NCBI GenBank assembly: GCA_015232245.1
Contig: JADGAB010000003.1
Location: forward strand, 1 to 40,672
From: Magnetococcales bacterium
GTDB lineage: Bacteria > Pseudomonadota > Magnetococcia > Magnetococcales > Magnetaquicoccaceae
Length of the DNA stretch: 40,672 nt
Direction: 5' to 3'
The notes under the pieces were generated by a model, which searched no databases, was not told the origin of the DNA, and was given only the letters and a program-made list of their open reading frames with translations. Shown piece after piece: positions 109 through 35,430 of this stretch; the first letter of the stretch is position 1, and the number at the start of each line of letters is the position of its first letter. The position numbers were made by a program, and so were the translations under genes.

Positions 109-1002
109 TTACAGTCGCAGATCCAGTGCCGCCAGTTCGGTATAGAGGTGGGTGATCTCCCGTTCGGTAAGATGCTCCGACCAGAACATCCGTGGCTGGG
201 TATCGATGATTTCAAAAGCCCCCAGGGGGATTTCCGGAAGAAAACGGGAAGGCAGATGGGTGGTCATCACCCCGTGCCGACGCAACAGATGGCGGGAGAT
301 GGCGGGATGAAACCGGGAAAAGATCCGGCCATCGCACACATGCAGCACCTTGGCGGCAGGCAGTCGTTTCCAGACACCCAGTTTGTAGACCACATGACAG
401 TAGCCGAGGGCGTTGCCCAACGCCACTTGATGCAGCCAGGGAAAGGAGCGGTGATTGCGGCAATCTCGGGCGGCGTCCGGGGAGAGGAGTTCCAGGATCT
501 CCTGCCGGTCCGTGATCACCCGTCCTCCCAGCGCCCGGGGCAGGGGCAGATAGGGCACCACCGTCACCCGGTCGCTCAGCCGCTGGAAACGGCGGGTTTC
601 GTACACCCGGGTCACCACCGGATTGGGGGTGAGCATGGTGATGTTCCATCCCGGCTGGGCGAGCAAAGCGCGCAACAGCTCCATGCTGAGATGACGATAA
701 GGCTCCAGCACGATCCAACTGTTCTGGTTGCAGAACCGTTCCGGTTTTCCCCGGATCATCTGTTCGGAGTAGAGCGCGGCAAACACCCCGACCACCTGCT
801 CCTGATCCACGATCATGAAACCGTGATTGGGCGGGTGAGCGATCCAGTTGGGTTGCCATAAGGCGTGTTTCCAGGCCGCCGGAGAGATCTTTTTGTTCAG
901 TCGCTCATGCAGAAACTGACAGACGTCATCCAGATCATTCTCTCCGATGGGCTGAATCACCGGATTGACGGGTTTGGGCAAGGGGGGTTCCTCGGCACTC
1001 AT
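109..1002 (-). CDS. GNAT-like N-acyltransferase family protein (297 aa)
   Basis: ORF restarted at ATG (MSAEEPPLPK...). Its ATG overlaps the stop of the upstream FkbH-like gene (ATGA). The segment FMIVDQEQVVGVFAALYSEQ...WIVLEPYRHLSMELLRALL is GNAT-like. Confidence 0.6.
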   Translation of the reverse strand: MSAEEPPLPKPVNPVIQPIGENDLDDVCQFLHERLNKKISPAAWKHALWQPNWIAHPPNHGFMIVDQEQVVGVFAALYSEQMIRGKPERFCNQNSWIVLEPYRHLSMELLRALLAQPGWNITMLTPNPVVTRVYETRRFQRLSDRVTVVPYLPLPRALGGRVITDRQEILELLSPDAARDCRNHRSFPWLHQVALGNALGYCHVVYKLGVWKRLPAAKVLHVCDGRIFSRFHPAISRHLLRRHGVMTTHLPSRFLPEIPLGAFEIIDTQPRMFWSEHLTEREITHLYTELAALDLRL

Positions 1003-2660
1003 GCAAGCACCTCGCGTGGCCATTTCCGGAGGGTGAACAGGTCGGCATCCTGGGCGTGGGCGCTCCGGAAGGTGGATACGTCCAGGGTGATGAGGTTTTC
1101 CGGAGGACCATGGTGGAAGGCCGGATCCTCCAGAAACAGTCGCAACGGGGCGTTTCTCTCCGTAGGTTGAAACTCCAGCACCAGCGGCGGACCGTTCCAG
1201 AGATCGGTCAGGTGGTACAAAAAGGCGAATTCCACCCGGCGTTGCATCACCCGACAGGAGAGTACCAGAGAGCGGATCCGTCCCGAAGCATCCACCAGAC
1301 AAGCCAGAATCTCCCCGTGACTGCCGGTGCGGTCCTCCAGGGTGGCGGTCCAAAGGACTCCTCCGGCCTCCAGAATGGCGCGAATCTCCTCGTCTGAAAG
1401 CCGGATCCCGTTGAGATTGAACTGATTGGTCTTGTTGATGAGTTGATGGGCCCGGGACCATTGGCCATCCAGAGGCTCCCGGATGGTGAGGACCATCTTG
1501 AGTCCGCGCAGAAACGCCAGCAGGGCGGCTCCGCTCTCCTCCGGGGGGGGCAGGGAGGCCAGCAGCCGTTGATAGTTGGCGGTGCGCTGGGCATCCTCGG
1601 CGGTGAGTACGCGCCGGGCGGTCAGGCGGGCCAGACGATTCAAAAAAGGGGAGAGGGAGGCTTCGTCACCGGGAAACGCCAGACAGGTCACCATGGGCAG
1701 CGCGGTCTGGACTTCCGCCAGCTCCACCGGGTTGTCATCCACGAACACCAGGGCATCCAGACCCAGATTGAGGGTTGTCGCCAGGGAGCGAATCAAGGCG
1801 GATTTGGCTCCGTATCCGGCCTGAATGGTGACGAGATCCTCGATTTTCAAAGGCATGTCCGCCGACTGGAACGGCGCCTTCGCCAGATCCGCGTCGTTGC
1901 GGGTGGCCACGGCGATCAATACCCCCTGCATCTTCAGACGCTTCAACACGGATTGATAGATGAAATGCCGGTATCCCACCCCTTCCGGCGCGGCCAGCAC
2001 CCCTTCCGGACCCGCCTCGCCCACCACCCCGTGCCACAGGGTGTGATCCAGATCCGTCACGATTCCCTTGATCGACCCGGACGGCGGATCCATCCACCAG
2101 GTGAAAAGTTCGTCCGTCAACTCCCCGAGCAGGCTGCCCGCCAGGGGGTTGCCGCTGGCCAGATATCCGGCCAGGGAAAAATGGGCCGGATCGAGCAGCA
2201 GAGGGTTGTGTCCGGCCACCAGATCCAGCAGAAAAGCGGACAGGGCGTGATTCCGGCCCGGATCCGGCAAAAGCGGCGGCACGGGAGCGGGCAGATAGAC
2301 AAACCGGCTGCCGGGACGTCTGGCCAGTTGTTCCATACGGTGCGCGGCCTCTGCGCGGAGCGTCTCCTCCCGGGCCAAAGCCGGACCGGTTCCCACCCGC
2401 CAGTCCAACTCCGGCACCAGATCCCAGGGGAGAAGAAACAGCATCTCCCCACGCCCCGGCACAGCAGGCATGGCCAGGGACTGCATCAAGGTACCAAATG
2501 GCAGCAGATCCACCACCAGTCGCAACCCCCGTTTGGCCCCCTGGGCGCGCAGAAACAGGGCAGTCTGCTCCAGCATGCCGGATCCGGCCAGCAGCAGCGG
2601 CACCTCTTGGGCCTCCGGAGACAAGGCGGCCAACCGTTGCTTGACCTCCAGGTAGTTCAT
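999..2660 (-). CDS. FkbH-like HAD-IIIC family protein (553 aa)
   Basis: HAD motif IKGIVTDLDHTLWHGVVGEAG, LIAVATRNDADLAK and LDALVFVDDNPVELAEV, followed by a C-terminal GNAT-like region; typical of FkbH/HAD-IIIC. Starts MNYLEVKQ at 2660; ATGA overlap with the upstream gene. Confidence 0.85.
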   Translation of the reverse strand: MNYLEVKQRLAALSPEAQEVPLLLAGSGMLEQTALFLRAQGAKRGLRLVVDLLPFGTLMQSLAMPAVPGRGEMLFLLPWDLVPELDWRVGTGPALAREETLRAEAAHRMEQLARRPGSRFVYLPAPVPPLLPDPGRNHALSAFLLDLVAGHNPLLLDPAHFSLAGYLASGNPLAGSLLGELTDELFTWWMDPPSGSIKGIVTDLDHTLWHGVVGEAGPEGVLAAPEGVGYRHFIYQSVLKRLKMQGVLIAVATRNDADLAKAPFQSADMPLKIEDLVTIQAGYGAKSALIRSLATTLNLGLDALVFVDDNPVELAEVQTALPMVTCLAFPGDEASLSPFLNRLARLTARRVLTAEDAQRTANYQRLLASLPPPEESGAALLAFLRGLKMVLTIREPLDGQWSRAHQLINKTNQFNLNGIRLSDEEIRAILEAGGVLWTATLEDRTGSHGEILACLVDASGRIRSLVLSCRVMQRRVEFAFLYHLTDLWNGPPLVLEFQPTERNAPLRLFLEDPAFHHGPPENLITLDVSTFRSAHAQDADLFTLRKWPREVLA

Positions 2661-3730
2661 GGCGTCATTCCCCCGGAAAGGGTCAACATGGCCCCCGAGG
2701 TAAAAATCGAAGGATTGCCCAACAGCCACTGGAGCTGTTGGGCCGCCTCCCGAGTGGTGATCAGGCGACCATGGGGGGAGCGGTCCCCATGCCGGATGGC
2801 CAGTGATTTGTGCATGCCGGCGTTCATGCCGGGTCCGGCGATGATGTCGAAGGCCACCCCAAGACACTTCCGGCCCTGGGCGCCCAACTCCAGGGCGAGG
2901 ATGCCGGTCAGGGTTGGGATCAAGGATTTTCCCAGACTGTACAAAGGCATGCGGTAGTGATGCCAGCCCGGTTGCGCCATGGTGGAGCCCACCAGGATCA
3001 ATGGCGCGCCAGGCACTCCCTGACGGACCAGAGCCTGGGCCAGGGTGATCATCTGTTCCAGGGGAGCGGCCACATGATGGGCGATGGCGGTCCGGGTGGA
3101 GGTGGCCAGTTGGGTCACTCTCTGGTTGTCCGGAGTAGGCCAACCGCAATGGACAATCCCCGCGATGGGACGCTGGGGAAAAGCAAACAGGGTGTCCGGA
3201 TCCCGAGGCAAAGGTTGACCGGAGGTCCCGAGAAGCTCCAGCAGCGCGGAACCCAGTCCGCCTGAGCCACCAGTCACCAGAATGACCGGCCTGTCATCCG
3301 TCGGAACAAAGGAGGGCAGGGGGGTGACGTCGGGGAGCGGGGGGATGGTCTGCTGATGATGACCGTAGCGGTAGGAGCCTTCCACCAGACGCATGCCGGT
3401 GCTCTTGTCGTCGATGACCACCCGGACCTCGCCGACCTCCGGGCCGGTCTGCAGCGGAGTGCCCGTCACCCGCAGTTCGGCGGGGGGGTGAATCGGCGCG
3501 ATGAAGCTCAAACGCAGACCATGCAGCAGACAGCTTCTTCCCGGCAGATGCATTCCCGCCATGCGGGAGAGCAGCCCCGCGGCATAGGCCCCATGGAGAA
3601 TCGGTCGTCCGAAGGTGGTGCCCGCCGCATAGGCCGGATCCACGTGCAGGGGATTGTGATCCCCGGACAACTCCGCAAAGCGCCGGGCATCCTCCAGGGT
3701 GACCCGCACATCGAAAGAGACTGCGGTCAT
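2657..3730 (-). CDS. MaoC-like hydratase domain fused to an SDR oxidoreductase domain (357 aa)
   Basis: N-terminal MaoC hot-dog motif FAELSGDHNPLHVDPAYAAGTTFGRPILHGAYAAGLLS; C-terminal Rossmann motif VILVTGGSGGLGSALLELL with YSLGKS. Confidence 0.85.
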   Translation of the reverse strand: MTAVSFDVRVTLEDARRFAELSGDHNPLHVDPAYAAGTTFGRPILHGAYAAGLLSRMAGMHLPGRSCLLHGLRLSFIAPIHPPAELRVTGTPLQTGPEVGEVRVVIDDKSTGMRLVEGSYRYGHHQQTIPPLPDVTPLPSFVPTDDRPVILVTGGSGGLGSALLELLGTSGQPLPRDPDTLFAFPQRPIAGIVHCGWPTPDNQRVTQLATSTRTAIAHHVAAPLEQMITLAQALVRQGVPGAPLILVGSTMAQPGWHHYRMPLYSLGKSLIPTLTGILALELGAQGRKCLGVAFDIIAGPGMNAGMHKSLAIRHGDRSPHGRLITTREAAQQLQWLLGNPSIFTSGAMLTLSGGMTP

Positions 3731-3966
3731 AACCCCTTTTCTTCCAGCAGCAGACAGGCCGCGGCATAAGAGGTGATCCGATCCATCTCGCCGATGGAGA
3801 AACTCAAACCGTATTCGCTTTCCATGGCCGCAATCAGGGAGACATGGGCCAGGGAGTTCCAGCGCGGCTCGGTGAGATTGCGGATCGGCTCCACCGCTTC
3901 ATCCGCGTCCATCTCCAGAATGGCGCGGAAGATCTCCTGCAATTTCTTTTCGTTGTCGCTACGCAT
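3727..3966 (-). CDS. Acyl carrier protein (79 aa)
   Basis: MRSDNEKKLQEIFRAIL...EPRWNSLAHVSLIAAMESEYGLSFSIGEMDRITSYAAACLLLEEKGL. PPant-attachment Ser in WNSLAHV (Asn replaces the usual Asp before Ser). ATGA overlap with the MaoC-SDR gene. Confidence 0.8.
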   Translation of the reverse strand: MRSDNEKKLQEIFRAILEMDADEAVEPIRNLTEPRWNSLAHVSLIAAMESEYGLSFSIGEMDRITSYAAACLLLEEKGL

Positions 3967-3985: not shown

Positions 3986-4957
3986 TCAGCTCGACGCGCT
4001 GCCATCCTGGGCCACACCCATGGACATGAACTTGTCGAAACGCTCCTTGATCAGGGTTTTGGGACTCTTTTTGCGCAGTTCCCGCAAATGGTGAATCAGA
4101 TGTCGTTTGAGCAGATTGGCCGCCTCCTGGGGATTGCGATGGGCGCCGCCGATGGGTTCGGGAATGATCTCGTCGATCACCTTCAATTCCAGAATGTCCG
4201 AGGCGGTGAGTCGCAGGGCTTCGGAGGCCAGTTCCGCCTTGGAGGAGTCTTTCCAGAGAATCGAGGCGCACCCCTCGGGGGAGATGACCGAATAGGTGGC
4301 GTACTGCATCATCAACACCCGGTTGCCCATGCCCAACGCCAATGCCCCTCCGGAGCCACCCTCGCCGATGATCACCGTGAGGATCGGCACCTTCAACGAG
4401 GCCATCTCCTTGAGATTGCGGGCAATGGCTTCCGCCTGGCCCCGCTCCTCCGCGCCCTTTCCCGGATAGGCGCCCGGGGTGTCGATGAGACAGATCACCG
4501 GCAGTTTGAATTTCTCCGCCAGCTTCATCAGCCGCAACGCCTTGCGATACCCCTCGGGTCTGGGCATGCCGAAGTTGCGACGCACCTTCTCCTTGGTGCC
4601 CCGGCCTTTTTCCTGGCCGATCACCATCACGTCGCCATCGTCGAGGATGGCCAGGCCGCCGATGATCGATTCGTCATCCCCGAAAACCCGGTCGCCGTGC
4701 AGCTCCTTGAACCCCTCGAAGACCTGTTCCAGGTAATCCGTGGTGAAGGGCCGGTCAGGATGGCGGGAGAGCAGGGTTTTCTGCCAGGGGGTGAGTTTGG
4801 CGAAAATCCGTTCCGTCAGATGGACGGTTTCCTGTTCCAGTCGGGCGATATCCTGGGAGATGTTGATGTCCGAACTGTTGGACAACAGTCGCAGATCATC
4901 GATTTTGGACATCAACTCCCCAATGGGGCGTTCGAATTCGAGAAAGGTTTGGGACAT
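3986..4957 (-). CDS. accA: Acetyl-CoA carboxylase carboxyltransferase subunit alpha
   Basis: MSQTFLEFERPIGELMSKIDDLR..., FGMPRPEGYRKALRLM, DTPGAYPGKGAEERGQAEAIA, IGEGGSGGALALGMGNRVLMM, ATYSVISPEGCASILWKD: canonical AccA. Confidence 0.97.
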   Translation of the reverse strand: MSQTFLEFERPIGELMSKIDDLRLLSNSSDINISQDIARLEQETVHLTERIFAKLTPWQKTLLSRHPDRPFTTDYLEQVFEGFKELHGDRVFGDDESIIGGLAILDDGDVMVIGQEKGRGTKEKVRRNFGMPRPEGYRKALRLMKLAEKFKLPVICLIDTPGAYPGKGAEERGQAEAIARNLKEMASLKVPILTVIIGEGGSGGALALGMGNRVLMMQYATYSVISPEGCASILWKDSSKAELASEALRLTASDILELKVIDEIIPEPIGGAHRNPQEAANLLKRHLIHHLRELRKKSPKTLIKERFDKFMSMGVAQDGSASS

Positions 4958-5088: not shown

Positions 5089-6603
5089 TCATCGCGCCTC
5101 CGGCACCCGGTGGGGCAGGAAAAGCTGGCGCGCTTTTCCCAGCAGCACGGTCAGACCGAGCACCCCGGAGAGAATGAACAGAAAATCGAATGGCATGCGG
5201 TATTCGACAAACGGGGACTGGGAGATCAGAGAGACAAGAGAGACCGCCCCTCCGGGCACCAGCAGACACAACAGCAGGCGAAATTCCACGACCCGAACCA
5301 TGCCCAGCAGTGGCAGGGTGAGCAGCCAGAAGTAGCCCATTACATGAAGATCAAGGAGATAACGTTTCAGGAATTCCGCCGTTGCGCAGGATGGGGGAAC
5401 CGAACGCATCATCCGTGTGGTGGAATTTGCCAGATCATCCAGTTGTTTCACAACTTCGGGTGGGAGTGGGGATTGCTGGACATCGACAATGCTGTAGTGA
5501 TTGCCCGGCAATTTTTGCGGCGCGGGTTCGGGCGCGGATGTGGAGGCATCTCCCCTTGTCGGGGGGGGAGGCAGGCATTGGGCGTTCAATTCAGGGTTGT
5601 AGGTATGGGTCAAGCCCCATTCAGCCAGGTTGTAGACCACCCGGAGAAACGGTTTCGGATGACGCACAAACGACTCCCAATAGGCCTGTTCCAGCAGTCC
5701 CGGCGCGTATCGGCTGGTCAGGATGAACAGATCCTGACAGAATTTTTTATGTCTGGAAGCAAAGAATTTCTCCAGGGTGATCCCGTAATCCTTGTAGGCC
5801 GGCTGGGAAAGCAGATGCTGCTCGACCAGTTCAGCCAGCCGGGCCGAAGCCGGACCGTTGGATGGGGACATGGTTTTGTTGAAATAGAAAAAATTATAAA
5901 CAGGCAACCCCTTCAGGCTTGCCACTGAAAAAAAACCGAAATTGACATAATTGGAATACGAGTAAAGCAGAATGCCTAGTGCAAATACAGAAAAAACCAT
6001 CAGGGCGTGCCTGATCGTTCTGGATGAGAGACCAAAACAGACGATGAACAGGAGAGAAATGATGACAAACAGTTGATTGACTGGCCGGATCGTGGCCAGC
6101 ATGAAGGATGCCGCCCCCATGAGGGCACCGCTGAGATAAATATTGGGAAGGTGATACGCCCTGACCACAACGATAAGCCAGATGTTGAAACCGATGAAGG
6201 TAAACGGATCACTGCTCAGAAAATTCAGAAAGGTGGGGATCTGCAAATCCAGAACGGCGGTCAATGCGACAATTCTGGCAATGGTCCGCCCGAAAAGGCA
6301 CCCGACGTAATAGATTGCGAAAACAGAAAGCAAATATCCGCAACACATGAAGAACTCAATGAACCAATACCCCCCCTTGAGCAGCAGGCGCAACAGGAAG
6401 ATGGTAAACATTCCGTCATCGCTCATCCGGTCGAGAACCGTGCTGTTCATGTATCTGGAGAAATCTCTTCCTTCGCCAATCGGCCAACTGCTCGTGGCCA
6501 CCACAAAGGCAAGAGTCGCCAACACCATGAGCGCGATCAGAAATTTGGGATCCTCTCGGATGACGCGCCGCAGGGAATCCGGACGATCATACTGAATGAT
6601 CAT
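5089..6603 (-). CDS. Polytopic membrane protein, possible GT-C-type glycosyltransferase
   Basis: Multiple hydrophobic segments, a soluble loop and a Pro-rich linker. Start chosen at ATG 6603 (MIIQYDRPDS), preceded by AAGGA about 9 nt upstream; ATG 6621 is also possible. Confidence 0.55.
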   Translation of the reverse strand: MIIQYDRPDSLRRVIREDPKFLIALMVLATLAFVVATSSWPIGEGRDFSRYMNSTVLDRMSDDGMFTIFLLRLLLKGGYWFIEFFMCCGYLLSVFAIYYVGCLFGRTIARIVALTAVLDLQIPTFLNFLSSDPFTFIGFNIWLIVVVRAYHLPNIYLSGALMGAASFMLATIRPVNQLFVIISLLFIVCFGLSSRTIRHALMVFSVFALGILLYSYSNYVNFGFFSVASLKGLPVYNFFYFNKTMSPSNGPASARLAELVEQHLLSQPAYKDYGITLEKFFASRHKKFCQDLFILTSRYAPGLLEQAYWESFVRHPKPFLRVVYNLAEWGLTHTYNPELNAQCLPPPPTRGDASTSAPEPAPQKLPGNHYSIVDVQQSPLPPEVVKQLDDLANSTTRMMRSVPPSCATAEFLKRYLLDLHVMGYFWLLTLPLLGMVRVVEFRLLLCLLVPGGAVSLVSLISQSPFVEYRMPFDFLFILSGVLGLTVLLGKARQLFLPHRVPEAR

Positions 6604-6687
6604 AAAGTTGCATCCTTCCATCGACCCGACGGGCGGTGTTTGGCCAAATTCACGTTATTCGCAGGTTAGGCAATTTCAGCATGGAAA

Positions 6688-8187
6688 TCAACCTGGGTCG
6701 GGACCAACGCGCTTTTTGCTCTCTTCGATGGCCATGGTCAGATGATCCTCCAGTTTGGGGGTGGGGGTGGCCTCCATGTAGATCTGATAGGAGAACACTC
6801 CCCGGGAGAGCCGGATCAGGATCCGGTTGAGGGACAAAAGCGCTCTGCCGATCACTCCCGAGCCGAACACCATGGGAAACGGGGCAGGGATGCCGACCAC
6901 CTTTTGGACCGTGAATCCGCATTGTTCCAACAGGTTGCGCATGCTTTTGAAAGTGAAAAGCCTCTTGTGGTCCAGATCGAGAATGCCACGCTTCCCATAG
7001 TTGAAATGGCCCATCAACAACATGATGCGGATCACGAAAAAGGCCACGTTACCGGTGGTTACGATGATCCGCACCCCCGGAGCGTTGATGGCCGCATGGG
7101 AGAGCCGGTGCATGAACGCCTCGGGGTTGCCGAGGTGTTCGATGACATCCATCAACAACACCCGGTCGAAGCTCTCCAGGGAGAGAGGAAACGGGTCGGC
7201 CTCCAGGTCGGCCTGAATGAAAAGGTCCAATTGGCTTGCGTCCTCCGGTCGATTGCGGTCAATCCCCACCACATGTCCACCGCTTTCACGGATGGCCTGG
7301 GCGATATGTCCACCCGCGCACCCCACGTCAAGAACGCGGGCTCCGGGAGGAATGGCCTGCAACGACAGGGTGTGGGAACTGATGAAGGTGAGTTTGGCCG
7401 GATAATGGTCTTTGGGTCTGTTGAGGCACTGAATATCAAATTTTTGCTGATAAAGCAGATCGTACTGTTGAATCCTGGCAAGCAGGGTGCTCTTGCAGAC
7501 GTTCCAGGCATACTGCACACCGTTCACATGGCAGATTTCATCCCCATAGTAGGTGGGAATGGGGATCTCCTCGATGCGCATCCCTGCACGCATCAGTTGA
7601 ATGATGATCTCCGTGTCGAAGTGAAAGTCCGGAGTGTTGAGGTGAAACGGAATCGCCCGCAAGGCGTGAATCGAATAGAGCCGATAGCCCGAATGAAATT
7701 CGCTCAACGACGAGCCCAGCAGGCGGTTCTGCAATCCGGTCAGAACCTTGTTGCCCAGGAATTTGTAAAAGGGCATGCCCCCCTTTCTGGCTGCGCCGCG
7801 TTGCAGCATGCGTGAGCCGAAAACCGCGTCCGCCTGATCGGCCAGCAAAGGGAGCAACAGTTCCGGCAGCGCCTCGGGGGCATACTGACCGTCTCCGTGG
7901 ACCAGGGCGACGATATCGAAACCGTGCTGGATGGCGTAATAGAATCCCACCTTCTGGTTGCCGCCATACCCGAGATTGACAGGATTGTAGAGCACCGTGA
8001 TTCTGAAAGGGGATCGGGCCTGCTGCGCGTACTGTCTGGCCATTTCAAAGGTACGGTCCTGGGAGGAGTCGTCGATGATCAGGACTTCGGTATTGGCTTT
8101 GTCAAGGGTGTCGGGAATCCGGTTCAACACGGTCTGGATGGTCTTTTCCGCGTTGTAGGCCACGATAAAAATCAATATCTTTTTCAT
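6688..8187 (-). CDS. Glycosyltransferase family 2 (dolichyl-P-sugar synthase-like) fused to a class I SAM methyltransferase
   Basis: N-terminus MKKILIFIVAYNAEKTIQTVLNRIP...VLIIDDSSQDRTFEMA...ALVHGDGQYAPEALPELL; C-terminus ARVLDVGCAGGHIAQAIRESGGHVVGIDRNR...FDRVLLMDVIEHLGNPEAFM. Confidence 0.85.
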   Translation of the reverse strand: MKKILIFIVAYNAEKTIQTVLNRIPDTLDKANTEVLIIDDSSQDRTFEMARQYAQQARSPFRITVLYNPVNLGYGGNQKVGFYYAIQHGFDIVALVHGDGQYAPEALPELLLPLLADQADAVFGSRMLQRGAARKGGMPFYKFLGNKVLTGLQNRLLGSSLSEFHSGYRLYSIHALRAIPFHLNTPDFHFDTEIIIQLMRAGMRIEEIPIPTYYGDEICHVNGVQYAWNVCKSTLLARIQQYDLLYQQKFDIQCLNRPKDHYPAKLTFISSHTLSLQAIPPGARVLDVGCAGGHIAQAIRESGGHVVGIDRNRPEDASQLDLFIQADLEADPFPLSLESFDRVLLMDVIEHLGNPEAFMHRLSHAAINAPGVRIIVTTGNVAFFVIRIMLLMGHFNYGKRGILDLDHKRLFTFKSMRNLLEQCGFTVQKVVGIPAPFPMVFGSGVIGRALLSLNRILIRLSRGVFSYQIYMEATPTPKLEDHLTMAIEESKKRVGPDPG

Positions 8188-33164: not shown

Positions 33165-33476
33165 TCATGGCGCACATCCGGGCCTGTCTTTGCCCTCTTC
33201 GGCGATGGCGAAGAAGGTCCGCAGATGGGCGCTGTCGGAGAGGTCCCCGATGATCTTGAAGGTGGGTGGGGGGGAGACCCGCACCAGGGCCGGGACCGCA
33301 ATGATGCGATCCACCTCGGCCCGTTCCGGGGCTTGCAGGATGTCCACCACCTCCAGTTGCACATCATCCGGACGCAGATACTCCTGGATTTTCCTGAAAT
33401 TGTCCCTGGCCCGTTGGCCGGAGGGGGTGTCACCCACCACATAGAGCCTGAACTGGTACAAACCCGCATCGTTCAT
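33165..33476 (-). CDS. KaiB-like protein, divergent copy (103 aa)
   Basis: LYQFRLYVVGDTPSGQRARDNFRKIQEYLRPDDVQLEVVDILQAPERAEVDRIIAVPALVRVSPPPTFKIIGDLSDSAHLRTFF. Confidence 0.9.
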   Translation of the reverse strand: MNDAGLYQFRLYVVGDTPSGQRARDNFRKIQEYLRPDDVQLEVVDILQAPERAEVDRIIAVPALVRVSPPPTFKIIGDLSDSAHLRTFFAIAEEGKDRPGCAP

Positions 33477-33572
33477 GCCGACCGATTACGCCCCTGGGCG
33501 CACTCCCTATTCAGATTCAGTGGGATGCCCCTTCCATCCCCGCCACAACGTCTCACACTTCCGGCAGCCACA

Positions 33573-35090
33573 TCAATCCTGAAACATGCCTGAAATGCGA
33601 TCCATGCTCTCCACGTTCAGATACTCCGGCTTGCCGGTGAGAATCCCCACGATATTGCGGAACGGCTTGCCGATGTGCATCCCCTGATGGTCGATGGTGA
33701 ATTCACGGATCTCTTTTTCGTGCATGGAGCCACGCATCTTCAGCACCGTCACCCCGCGGCGCATCTCCCCCAGCATCTCCACATAACGCAGCAAAATGAT
33801 GGTGTCGGTGATGGAGGAAAAGTGCGACTCGGTCACGGACGGCCCACCCATGAGTGTGGCGGTGGTGGCCGTGAACAAGCCGGGAATCTCCCGGTGCTTG
33901 ACGAACGAGGCCAGGCTGATCATGAACTCCCGGAATCCCCGGTTGGTGCCCACCCGTTCCATGGCCGAAACGCTGTCCACCGCCACCCGGTCCGGTTTGA
34001 AAGAGTCGATCTCCTGTTTGATGGAGATGAGATGATCCTCCAGTCCGGCGCTTTCCGGATAGGCGCAGACCACCCGCAGTTGATTGTTGCGTTCCAACGC
34101 CTCGAAATCGATTCCCCAGCCGTTGGCGTTGCGCAGCAGTTGTTCCCGGCTCTCTTCGTAGGCGAACAGCAGGCACTTTTCCCCCTTCTTGGCACCGCCG
34201 TGGATGAATTCGGCGGTCATCAGGGTCTTGCCGCAACCGGTGGCGCCGGAGACCAGAATCAGGGAATCCCGAAAAAACCCCCCGCCGCACATCCGATCCA
34301 TCTCCGGGCTGCCGGAAGGCACCCGCATGCCCGAGGAGCGTTGTTTGAGTTCGATGGCCGACAACGGAATGATGATGATGCCCTGATCGGGCAGCACCGT
34401 GAATGGATATTCCCCTTTTTGATGGGTGGTGCCGCGAAATTTCAGGATCTCGATGGTCCGGCGGCGTTTTTCCGCCTCCAGCACGTTGCGCAGGATGATC
34501 ACGTTGTCGGCCACGAACTCCTCGACCCCGAAGCGGGCGATCTCGCCGAACTCCTGGGTGCGTTCGGCGGTCATCACCGCCGTGACCCCCATGCCCTTCA
34601 AGGCCGCGCTCAAACGTCGCAACTCCGCGCGGACCAGCGTGGCGTTGTTGAACAGGGTGAACACCGCACCCAGCGAATCGATGGAGATTCTTTTCGCGCC
34701 GATGGAACGCACGGCGTATTCGATGCGGGCCAACAATGCCCCCAAATCGAACTCGCCGGATTCGATGGTTTCGTGGCCCGGCTGGGGAGATGCGTCCACG
34801 AAACGCCATAGGTTCTGCTCCTCCCACTCCTGGATGTGCCAACTCATGGAGAGCAGATTCTTGCGAATCTCCGCAGGGTGCTCTTCGAAGGTCACGAAAA
34901 CCCCCGGTTCGTTGGATTTGCGGATCCCCTCGGCGAGAAACTGGGCTGCGAAGACCGTCTTGGCGCTGCCGGCGGTACCGGTGATCAGAGTGGTGCGCCC
35001 TTTGGGCAGCCCTCCCTGAGAAATGAGATCAAACCCCTCGATGCCGGTACCCAGTTTCTCGACGGGTATTTTGGAATTTTCCTTGGACAT
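33573..35090 (-). CDS. kaiC: KaiC, two-domain (CI-CII) clock ATPase/autokinase
   Basis: CI Walker A GTAGSAKT, FVTFEEHPAEIRKN. CII Walker A GATGCGKT, LLFAYEESREQLLRN, DRVAVDSVSAME. SHFSSITDTIILLRYVEMLGEMRRGVTVLKMRGSMHEKEIREF matches the KaiC phosphosite region. ATG at 35090 (TTG 35102 possible). Confidence 0.97.
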   Translation of the reverse strand: MSKENSKIPVEKLGTGIEGFDLISQGGLPKGRTTLITGTAGSAKTVFAAQFLAEGIRKSNEPGVFVTFEEHPAEIRKNLLSMSWHIQEWEEQNLWRFVDASPQPGHETIESGEFDLGALLARIEYAVRSIGAKRISIDSLGAVFTLFNNATLVRAELRRLSAALKGMGVTAVMTAERTQEFGEIARFGVEEFVADNVIILRNVLEAEKRRRTIEILKFRGTTHQKGEYPFTVLPDQGIIIIPLSAIELKQRSSGMRVPSGSPEMDRMCGGGFFRDSLILVSGATGCGKTLMTAEFIHGGAKKGEKCLLFAYEESREQLLRNANGWGIDFEALERNNQLRVVCAYPESAGLEDHLISIKQEIDSFKPDRVAVDSVSAMERVGTNRGFREFMISLASFVKHREIPGLFTATTATLMGGPSVTESHFSSITDTIILLRYVEMLGEMRRGVTVLKMRGSMHEKEIREFTIDHQGMHIGKPFRNIVGILTGKPEYLNVESMDRISGMFQD

Positions 35091-35133
35091 GATCTTGCTC
35101 AATCCTCGTGCGTGATGAATAAGCGATCTGTTG

Positions 35134-35430
35134 CTACAGTTTCAGTTCCATTGGAAGCAGATCCAGACCCAACAGCACCTTTTCGGTGTCCGTCAGATCG
35201 CCGATGATGCGTCGCAACGGCGGCGGCAACACCTTGATCAGAGTCGGGGTGGCCAGAATCTTTTCATCCTCGGCCAGTTGCGGCTGCTCCAGGATGTCGA
35301 TGACCCGCATCTCGTAGCGGCCATCCAGATCCTGCGCGCAGATGCGCCGCAGATTCTTGATGGCGCGTTCCGAACGGGGCGTATGACCAGTTATATACAG
35401 TTTCAATAAAAATTTTTCGTTTTCGCTCAT
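35134..35430 (-). CDS. kaiB: KaiB, canonical clock-type (98 aa)
   Basis: [86 protein letters not shown], very close to cyanobacterial KaiB. Confidence 0.97.

Follow-up and report, generated by a model that had tools for sequence, protein, structure and literature searches.

A conserved ACP, MaoC-SDR and FkbH gene set as a probable lactyl-ACP generator in Magnetococcales

The stretch of DNA analysed here (the window, 40,672 nucleotides) comprises bases 1–40672 of contig C333 (JADGAB010000003.1) in the 481-contig assembly of a Magnetococcales bacterium, and its start is the first base of the contig. Four genes at its left end encode an acyl carrier protein (ACP), a fusion of a MaoC hydratase domain to a short-chain dehydrogenase/reductase (SDR), an FkbH-family enzyme and a GNAT-like transferase (Table 1). 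We consider that this cassette is probably a stand-alone generator of lactyl-ACP, or at least of pyruvyl-ACP, coupled to an acyltransferase. In the proposed pathway FkbH would load a glyceryl group from 1,3-bisphosphoglycerate onto the dedicated ACP, after which the MaoC domain would remove water across C2–C3 of glyceryl-S-ACP to give enolpyruvyl- and then pyruvyl-S-ACP. The SDR domain would reduce the α-ketone with NAD(P)H to lactyl-S-ACP, and the GNAT would then pass on the lactyl unit, its most likely acceptor being an amino group on a surface-polysaccharide sugar. The analysis establishes the genes, their catalytic motifs, the conservation of the set and its correspondence in parts to the set that makes the lankacidin starter; we infer each of these reactions for this organism, together with the product, its stereochemistry, and the donor and acceptor of the GNAT.

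Lactyl-ACP is the likely product because the lankacidin cluster contains the same set and the loading module of a trans-acyltransferase polyketide synthase (trans-AT PKS) has it in the form of domains. A lactyl-ACP toolkit that works without a PKS would also explain the missing ketosynthase: neither a motif search nor tblastn with FabH found one in the window or at any other cassette locus except G154. The preliminary description of this DNA had envisaged a hydratase and a reductase acting without a ketosynthase, with which the result for the window is consistent. It had also suggested a possibly novel acyl- or glyceryl-ACP pathway; a modified acyl group on an ACP still appears correct, but the claim to novelty gives way to the precedents in lankacidin and trans-AT PKS biosynthesis.

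Gene order and catalytic motifs

The FkbH protein matches TIGR01686 over residues 197–515 (E-value 6.1e-66, 222.8 bits against a cut-off of 146.65). The D-x-D-x-T, TNQFNL and SCR motifs are all present, and D203, D205, N412–L416 and C469 are invariant across 15 homologues; the first motif reads DLDHT in the window and DLDNT in most homologues. The nearest solved structure is 3slr only, the uncharacterised protein BF1531. Family membership and the invariant motifs together support the earlier proposal that a glyceryl unit would be loaded onto a dedicated ACP in the FkbH manner.

The ACP scores 19.3 bits, just under the Pfam cut-off of 20.8, and its attachment serine is kept in every aligned relative. 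The fusion protein matches MaoC (PF01575, 3e-17) and adh_short_C2 (9e-9). Residues D24/H29 of its MaoC part, and the TGGSGGLG turn and S249/Y264/K268 of its SDR part, vary little or not at all across 13 fusions drawn from several phyla, and an arginine after the second strand is retained in most members. Its AlphaFold model (predicted local distance difference test score, pLDDT, 81.6) resembles PhaJ-type (R)-hydratases and FabG-type reductases.

All four open reading frames are present, and the three ATGA overlaps between them lie where the preliminary description had placed them. Bacterial operons often show such overlaps, which alone indicate only co-translation. The overlap between the ACP and MaoC-SDR genes is 4 bp in 7/7 genomes measured and that between MaoC-SDR and FkbH is 4 bp in seven of eight, the exception being G002. 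In the cassette copy of that genome (L099, 9962–12903) the MaoC-SDR frame is disrupted and the ACP, FkbH and GNAT genes remain, which reflects either an assembly error or decay.

Table 1. The cassette and its flanking genes in the window.
Feature	Positions	Strand	Proposed role or remark
ACP, 79 aa	3727–3966	minus	dedicated acyl carrier protein; S38 is the carrier serine (W-N-S-L)
MaoC (single hot-dog)-SDR fusion, 357 aa	2657–3730	minus	proposed glyceryl-ACP dehydratase and α-keto reductase
FkbH-family HAD enzyme, 553 aa	999–2660	minus	proposed glyceryl-ACP synthase
Tandem-GNAT-fold protein, 297 aa	109–1002	minus	proposed lactyl transferase
ATGA overlap, ACP/MaoC-SDR	3727–3730	minus	exact in sequence
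ATGA overlap, MaoC-SDR/FkbH	2657–2660	minus	exact in sequence
ATGA overlap, FkbH/GNAT	999–1002	minus	exact in sequence
accA	3986–4957		upstream of the cassette
Membrane protein	5089–6621		no Pfam or NCBIfam match
GT2-methyltransferase	6688–8187		nearest Pfam-recognised sugar gene

Elsewhere in the window, at 33165–35430 on the minus strand, KaiC (PF06745, two domains) has a KaiB-domain gene on either side, in a neighbourhood of response regulators and histidine kinases.

Precedents among FkbH pathways

Passages of the published work on lankacidin describe its starter as pyruvoyl- or lactoyl-ACP derived from 1,3-bisphosphoglycerate. The lankacidin cluster lies on Streptomyces griseofuscus pSGRIFU1, where a flavin adenine dinucleotide (FAD) amine oxidase gives a full-length match to LkcE (1019 bits), and a MaoC-SDR (499 aa), an ACP (84 aa) and an FkbH (540 aa) are encoded beside lkcA and lkcB. 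This MaoC-SDR presumably represents the dehydratase and ketoreductase of the published work. The lankacidin set and the cassette share the same three discrete proteins (a hot-dog dehydratase-SDR, an ACP and an FkbH), which would need no dedicated ketosynthase to make the unit. However, the MaoC part of the lankacidin protein is double-length and its set feeds a non-ribosomal peptide synthetase (NRPS)/PKS line, whereas the window has no PKS and the GNAT follows. By analogy, the cassette would work like the lankacidin lactyl-ACP set, although its FkbH ancestry places it outside that lineage.

The same domains open the trans-AT PKS of S. anulatus NBC 01759, which starts with MaoC, ketoreductase (KR)/SDR, FkbH, ACP (the ACP being read from sequence) and ketosynthase (KS). 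Here they form one giant protein that continues into the KS, in contrast to the separate genes, without a KS, of the window. The chemistry of MaoC/dehydratase (DH)-KR-FkbH loading modules in trans-AT PKSs is attributed to He et al. (2014; listed in PMC6162330). Large FkbH proteins of G005 and G038 were considered as MaoC-SDR-FkbH PKS modules and rejected, their N-termini being NRPS- and KS-like. A further point of comparison is the glycerate-utilisation operon of tetronate biosynthesis, made up of FkbH, ACP and a FabH-like protein (PMC7489565, PMC4979870). It resembles the cassette in pairing FkbH with a dedicated ACP for the loading of glyceryl from 1,3-bisphosphoglycerate, but the window has MaoC-SDR in place of the FabH-like ligase.

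Conservation and repeated assembly of the set

The preliminary description had proposed a search for synteny, and the ACP/MaoC-SDR/FkbH block does recur, in 9/48 genomes of the order (no ACP was detected by tblastn in one of them, G025), with related FkbH-ACP-MaoC-SDR sets in other phyla. Its sites differ: it lies beside accA in both the window and G009, and among glycan genes (PMT_2, GT2, carbamoyltransferase) in G001 and G002. In other phyla, too, the cassette is found among glycan genes. G009 is the closest relative to share the accA-side context of the window; its left neighbours read from sequence as dapB, dnaJ and dnaK, not as glycan genes. Assignment of the cassette to an accA operon or to fatty-acid synthesis was rejected, since most relatives have accA without this neighbour and G001 and G002 carry the cassette elsewhere.

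When 84,980 species were scanned with MaoC-SDR as the sole query, matches came from Planctomycetes, Minicystis rosea, a member of the Actinomycetota and a Rhodospirillaceae metagenome-assembled genome; FkbH and an ACP-sized gene stood directly upstream of MaoC-SDR in all five full-length matches. A sixth outside locus, G566, came from a survey of Planctomycetes. Of the 22 loci with a MaoC-SDR fusion gene, 21 have an FkbH gene no more than 2.2 kb away, and the last breaks off after 276 bp at the end of its contig; the expectation from FkbH density is about 0.35% per locus (uncorrected for relatedness). The set is nevertheless rare: when only the top few candidates of each genome were scored, 399 genomes sampled from the phylum gave one locus outside the order, and the Planctomycetes sample gave 2/294 genomes. 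The FkbH proteins of the cassettes form one clade across phyla (support 100/99–100), separate from the other FkbHs of the same genomes. The ACP/MaoC-SDR/FkbH block is a conserved unit.

Comparison of the sequences indicates that the set has been assembled more than once. A second system in the same genus comprises MaoC-SDR, a 431-aa protein, an AAC(3)-type enzyme, FkbH and ACP, and its FkbH, MaoC and SDR fall in clades other than those of the cassette. In the Patescibacteria the order is FkbH-ACP-MaoC-SDR-MBOAT, in the Omnitrophica ACP-MaoC-SDR-MBOAT and in a Flavobacterium ACP-MaoC-SDR-FkbH-MBOAT; MaoC and SDR are separate genes in each, and the MBOAT is confirmed by Pfam in the first and read from sequence in the other two. 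Three actinobacterial loci carry FkbH-ACP-MaoC-SDR related to the lankacidin protein. The joining of MaoC and SDR to FkbH and ACP on several occasions is best explained if both act on the FkbH product.

Some of these loci have further features. In the second system, the gene that separates MaoC-SDR from AAC(3) encodes a conserved protein (431–434 aa; L144, 7227–8519; L146, 7622–8923) with no Pfam match and only a weak terpene-cyclase-like match. Copies of the second MaoC-SDR/FkbH system are also present in the window's own genome, in G000:C449 (L149, 8483–9697) and G000:C210 (L106, 7724–9661). As the FkbH of C210 groups with the clade of that system, the two probably represent a single locus broken by contig ends. 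The same genome has another FkbH-ACP locus (G000:C111:48000–65800; L107, 13481–17642), in which a 377-aa gene of no evident family and an MBOAT-like gene come next; this is a candidate O-acylation version without MaoC-SDR. In the patescibacterial operon (L038, 7623–12018), from a genome of about 0.8 Mb, a gene that reads as acpS-like from sequence lies just upstream of FkbH.

The transferase, alternative explanations and significance

Neither Pfam nor NCBIfam has a match for the GNAT, and a sequence search of the PDB was also empty. Its AlphaFold model is confident (pLDDT 90) and matches tandem-GNAT structures such as 2hv2 and, with Foldseek E-values of about 1e-10 to 1e-9, 2ozg, Eis2 and NMT, supporting the earlier prediction of a GNAT-like transferase at the level of the modelled fold. 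The canonical Q/RxxGxG/A pyrophosphate loop was not found: the window protein has YRHLSMEL, and the GxG is missing in all 13 aligned relatives. A loop without the usual GxG would fit a donor other than coenzyme A (CoA).

Most cassette loci hold an acyltransferase gene, of GNAT, AAC(3) or MBOAT type. An AAC(3)-type acyltransferase replaces the GNAT in G039 and G025 and is encoded nearby in G041 and G037. Polysaccharide genes are present at many cassette loci: L036, for example, has Polysacc_deac/DUF3473 and L033 a borderline Polysacc_deac, and carbamoyltransferases also occur. If a deacetylase exposed an amine next to an N-acyltransferase, this would suit an exchange of acetyl for lactyl. A separate family with a VVDTEE-FDW start lies beside the GNAT or the cassette at L153 (8963–10060), L156 (6687–7700), L157 (9233–10342) and L098 (12544–13581); it looks like a divergent polysaccharide deacetylase, with no Pfam or NCBIfam match.

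Several observations weigh against a lactyl-ACP pathway that serves surface sugars. Similarity between the window and lankacidin MaoC-SDR proteins is low, at about 33% over the MaoC part and weak over the SDR, and the lankacidin FkbH belongs to a separate clade. The nucleotide-binding half of the SDR is shortened in the window lineage, the missing stretch being present in other phyla, so the window SDR could be weak or inactive, and the pathway would then stop at pyruvyl-ACP. In G154 a FabH-like ketosynthase lies beside MaoC-SDR, FkbH and ACP, and extension products are therefore possible in some lineages. The neighbour of the cassette in the window is accA, and the nearest sugar gene that Pfam recognises is the GT2-methyltransferase at 6688–8187. 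Finally, relatives of the GNAT occur in 25/48 genomes of the order, of which 16 have no cassette, and in G008 the GNAT stands alone downstream of accA. An exclusive tie of GNAT to cassette was rejected because of these 16 genomes, the link between them is the weakest step for the same reason, and the donor of the GNAT may be something other than the cassette product.

It follows that the first three genes could make an acyl-ACP, as in our preferred explanation, with the GNAT being a CoA-dependent enzyme that is merely encoded next door. The presence of GNAT relatives in 16/39 cassette-free genomes, and the solitary gene of G008, favour this arrangement. On the other hand, the GNAT directly follows FkbH in all four cassette-bearing members of the genus, at two different genomic places, a relative is present in 9/9 genomes with the cassette against 16/39 without (Fisher p 0.001, uncorrected for relatedness), and other GNATs lie near three of the distant loci, namely L033, L036 and L037. 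On balance we regard an unrelated GNAT as somewhat unlikely.

The remaining alternatives concern the acyl group itself. Glyceryl-ACP might be the final donor, with the GNAT moving unmodified glyceryl and MaoC-SDR serving another thioester. Glyceryl-derived substituents of surface sugars do exist: Campylobacter jejuni flagellin carries a di-O-methylglyceroyl pseudaminic acid (PMC3068675) and the locus contains an fkbH-domain gene, cj1302 (PMC7099621), a likeness to the cassette that, in the passages of these two papers, does not extend to a MaoC-SDR. Such a role is hard to reconcile with MaoC-SDR being translationally coupled between ACP and FkbH in members of the order, with its co-inheritance with one FkbH clade across phyla, or with the same set accompanying a starter that passages of the lankacidin work give as lactyl-ACP; we consider it quite improbable. 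A fatty-acid-like route, in which MaoC-SDR would convert acetoacetyl to 3-hydroxybutyryl (or crotonyl) on the ACP, accA would supply malonyl-CoA and FkbH would act separately, is suggested by the PhaJ-type (R)-hydratase and FabG folds, by accA beside the cassette in the window and G009, and by FabH in G154. Yet the cassette loci lack a ketosynthase or an acyltransferase to charge the ACP, and the association with accA fails in G001, G002 and most relatives, which leaves this route decidedly improbable. In methoxymalonyl-ACP biosynthesis it is accepted that a dehydrogenase next oxidises glyceryl-ACP (PMC7489565); this pathway (FkbG–K) shares FkbH and ACP with the cassette, and the SDR might likewise oxidise C3 to give tartronate-semialdehyde-ACP and an oxidised C3 unit. 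That pathway has no MaoC dehydratase, however, and its FkbI/FkbK/FkbG-type partners are absent here, the dehydrogenase pair and O-methyltransferase being found neither in the cassette nor among its conserved neighbours; the chance of such an oxidation appears very small.

The use of lactyl-ACP in this organism is probably the decoration of sugars on the cell surface. N-lactyl amino sugars occur in bacterial polysaccharides, and we know of no well-established lactyl donor for them; if our reading is correct, the cassette offers a three-enzyme candidate for this supply. More tentatively, a PKS-free lactyl-ACP pathway spread over several phyla may provide N- or O-lactyl groups to surface polysaccharides, with the carrier module (FkbH, ACP, MaoC and SDR) kept and the transferase (GNAT, AAC(3)-like or MBOAT) exchanged. 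On the lactyl-ACP reading, the AAC(3)-like, GNAT and MBOAT enzymes beside such cassettes are predicted to take lactyl-ACP, and the starter chemistry of antibiotic assembly lines would also be a general route from glycolysis to activated lactyl groups for glycans.

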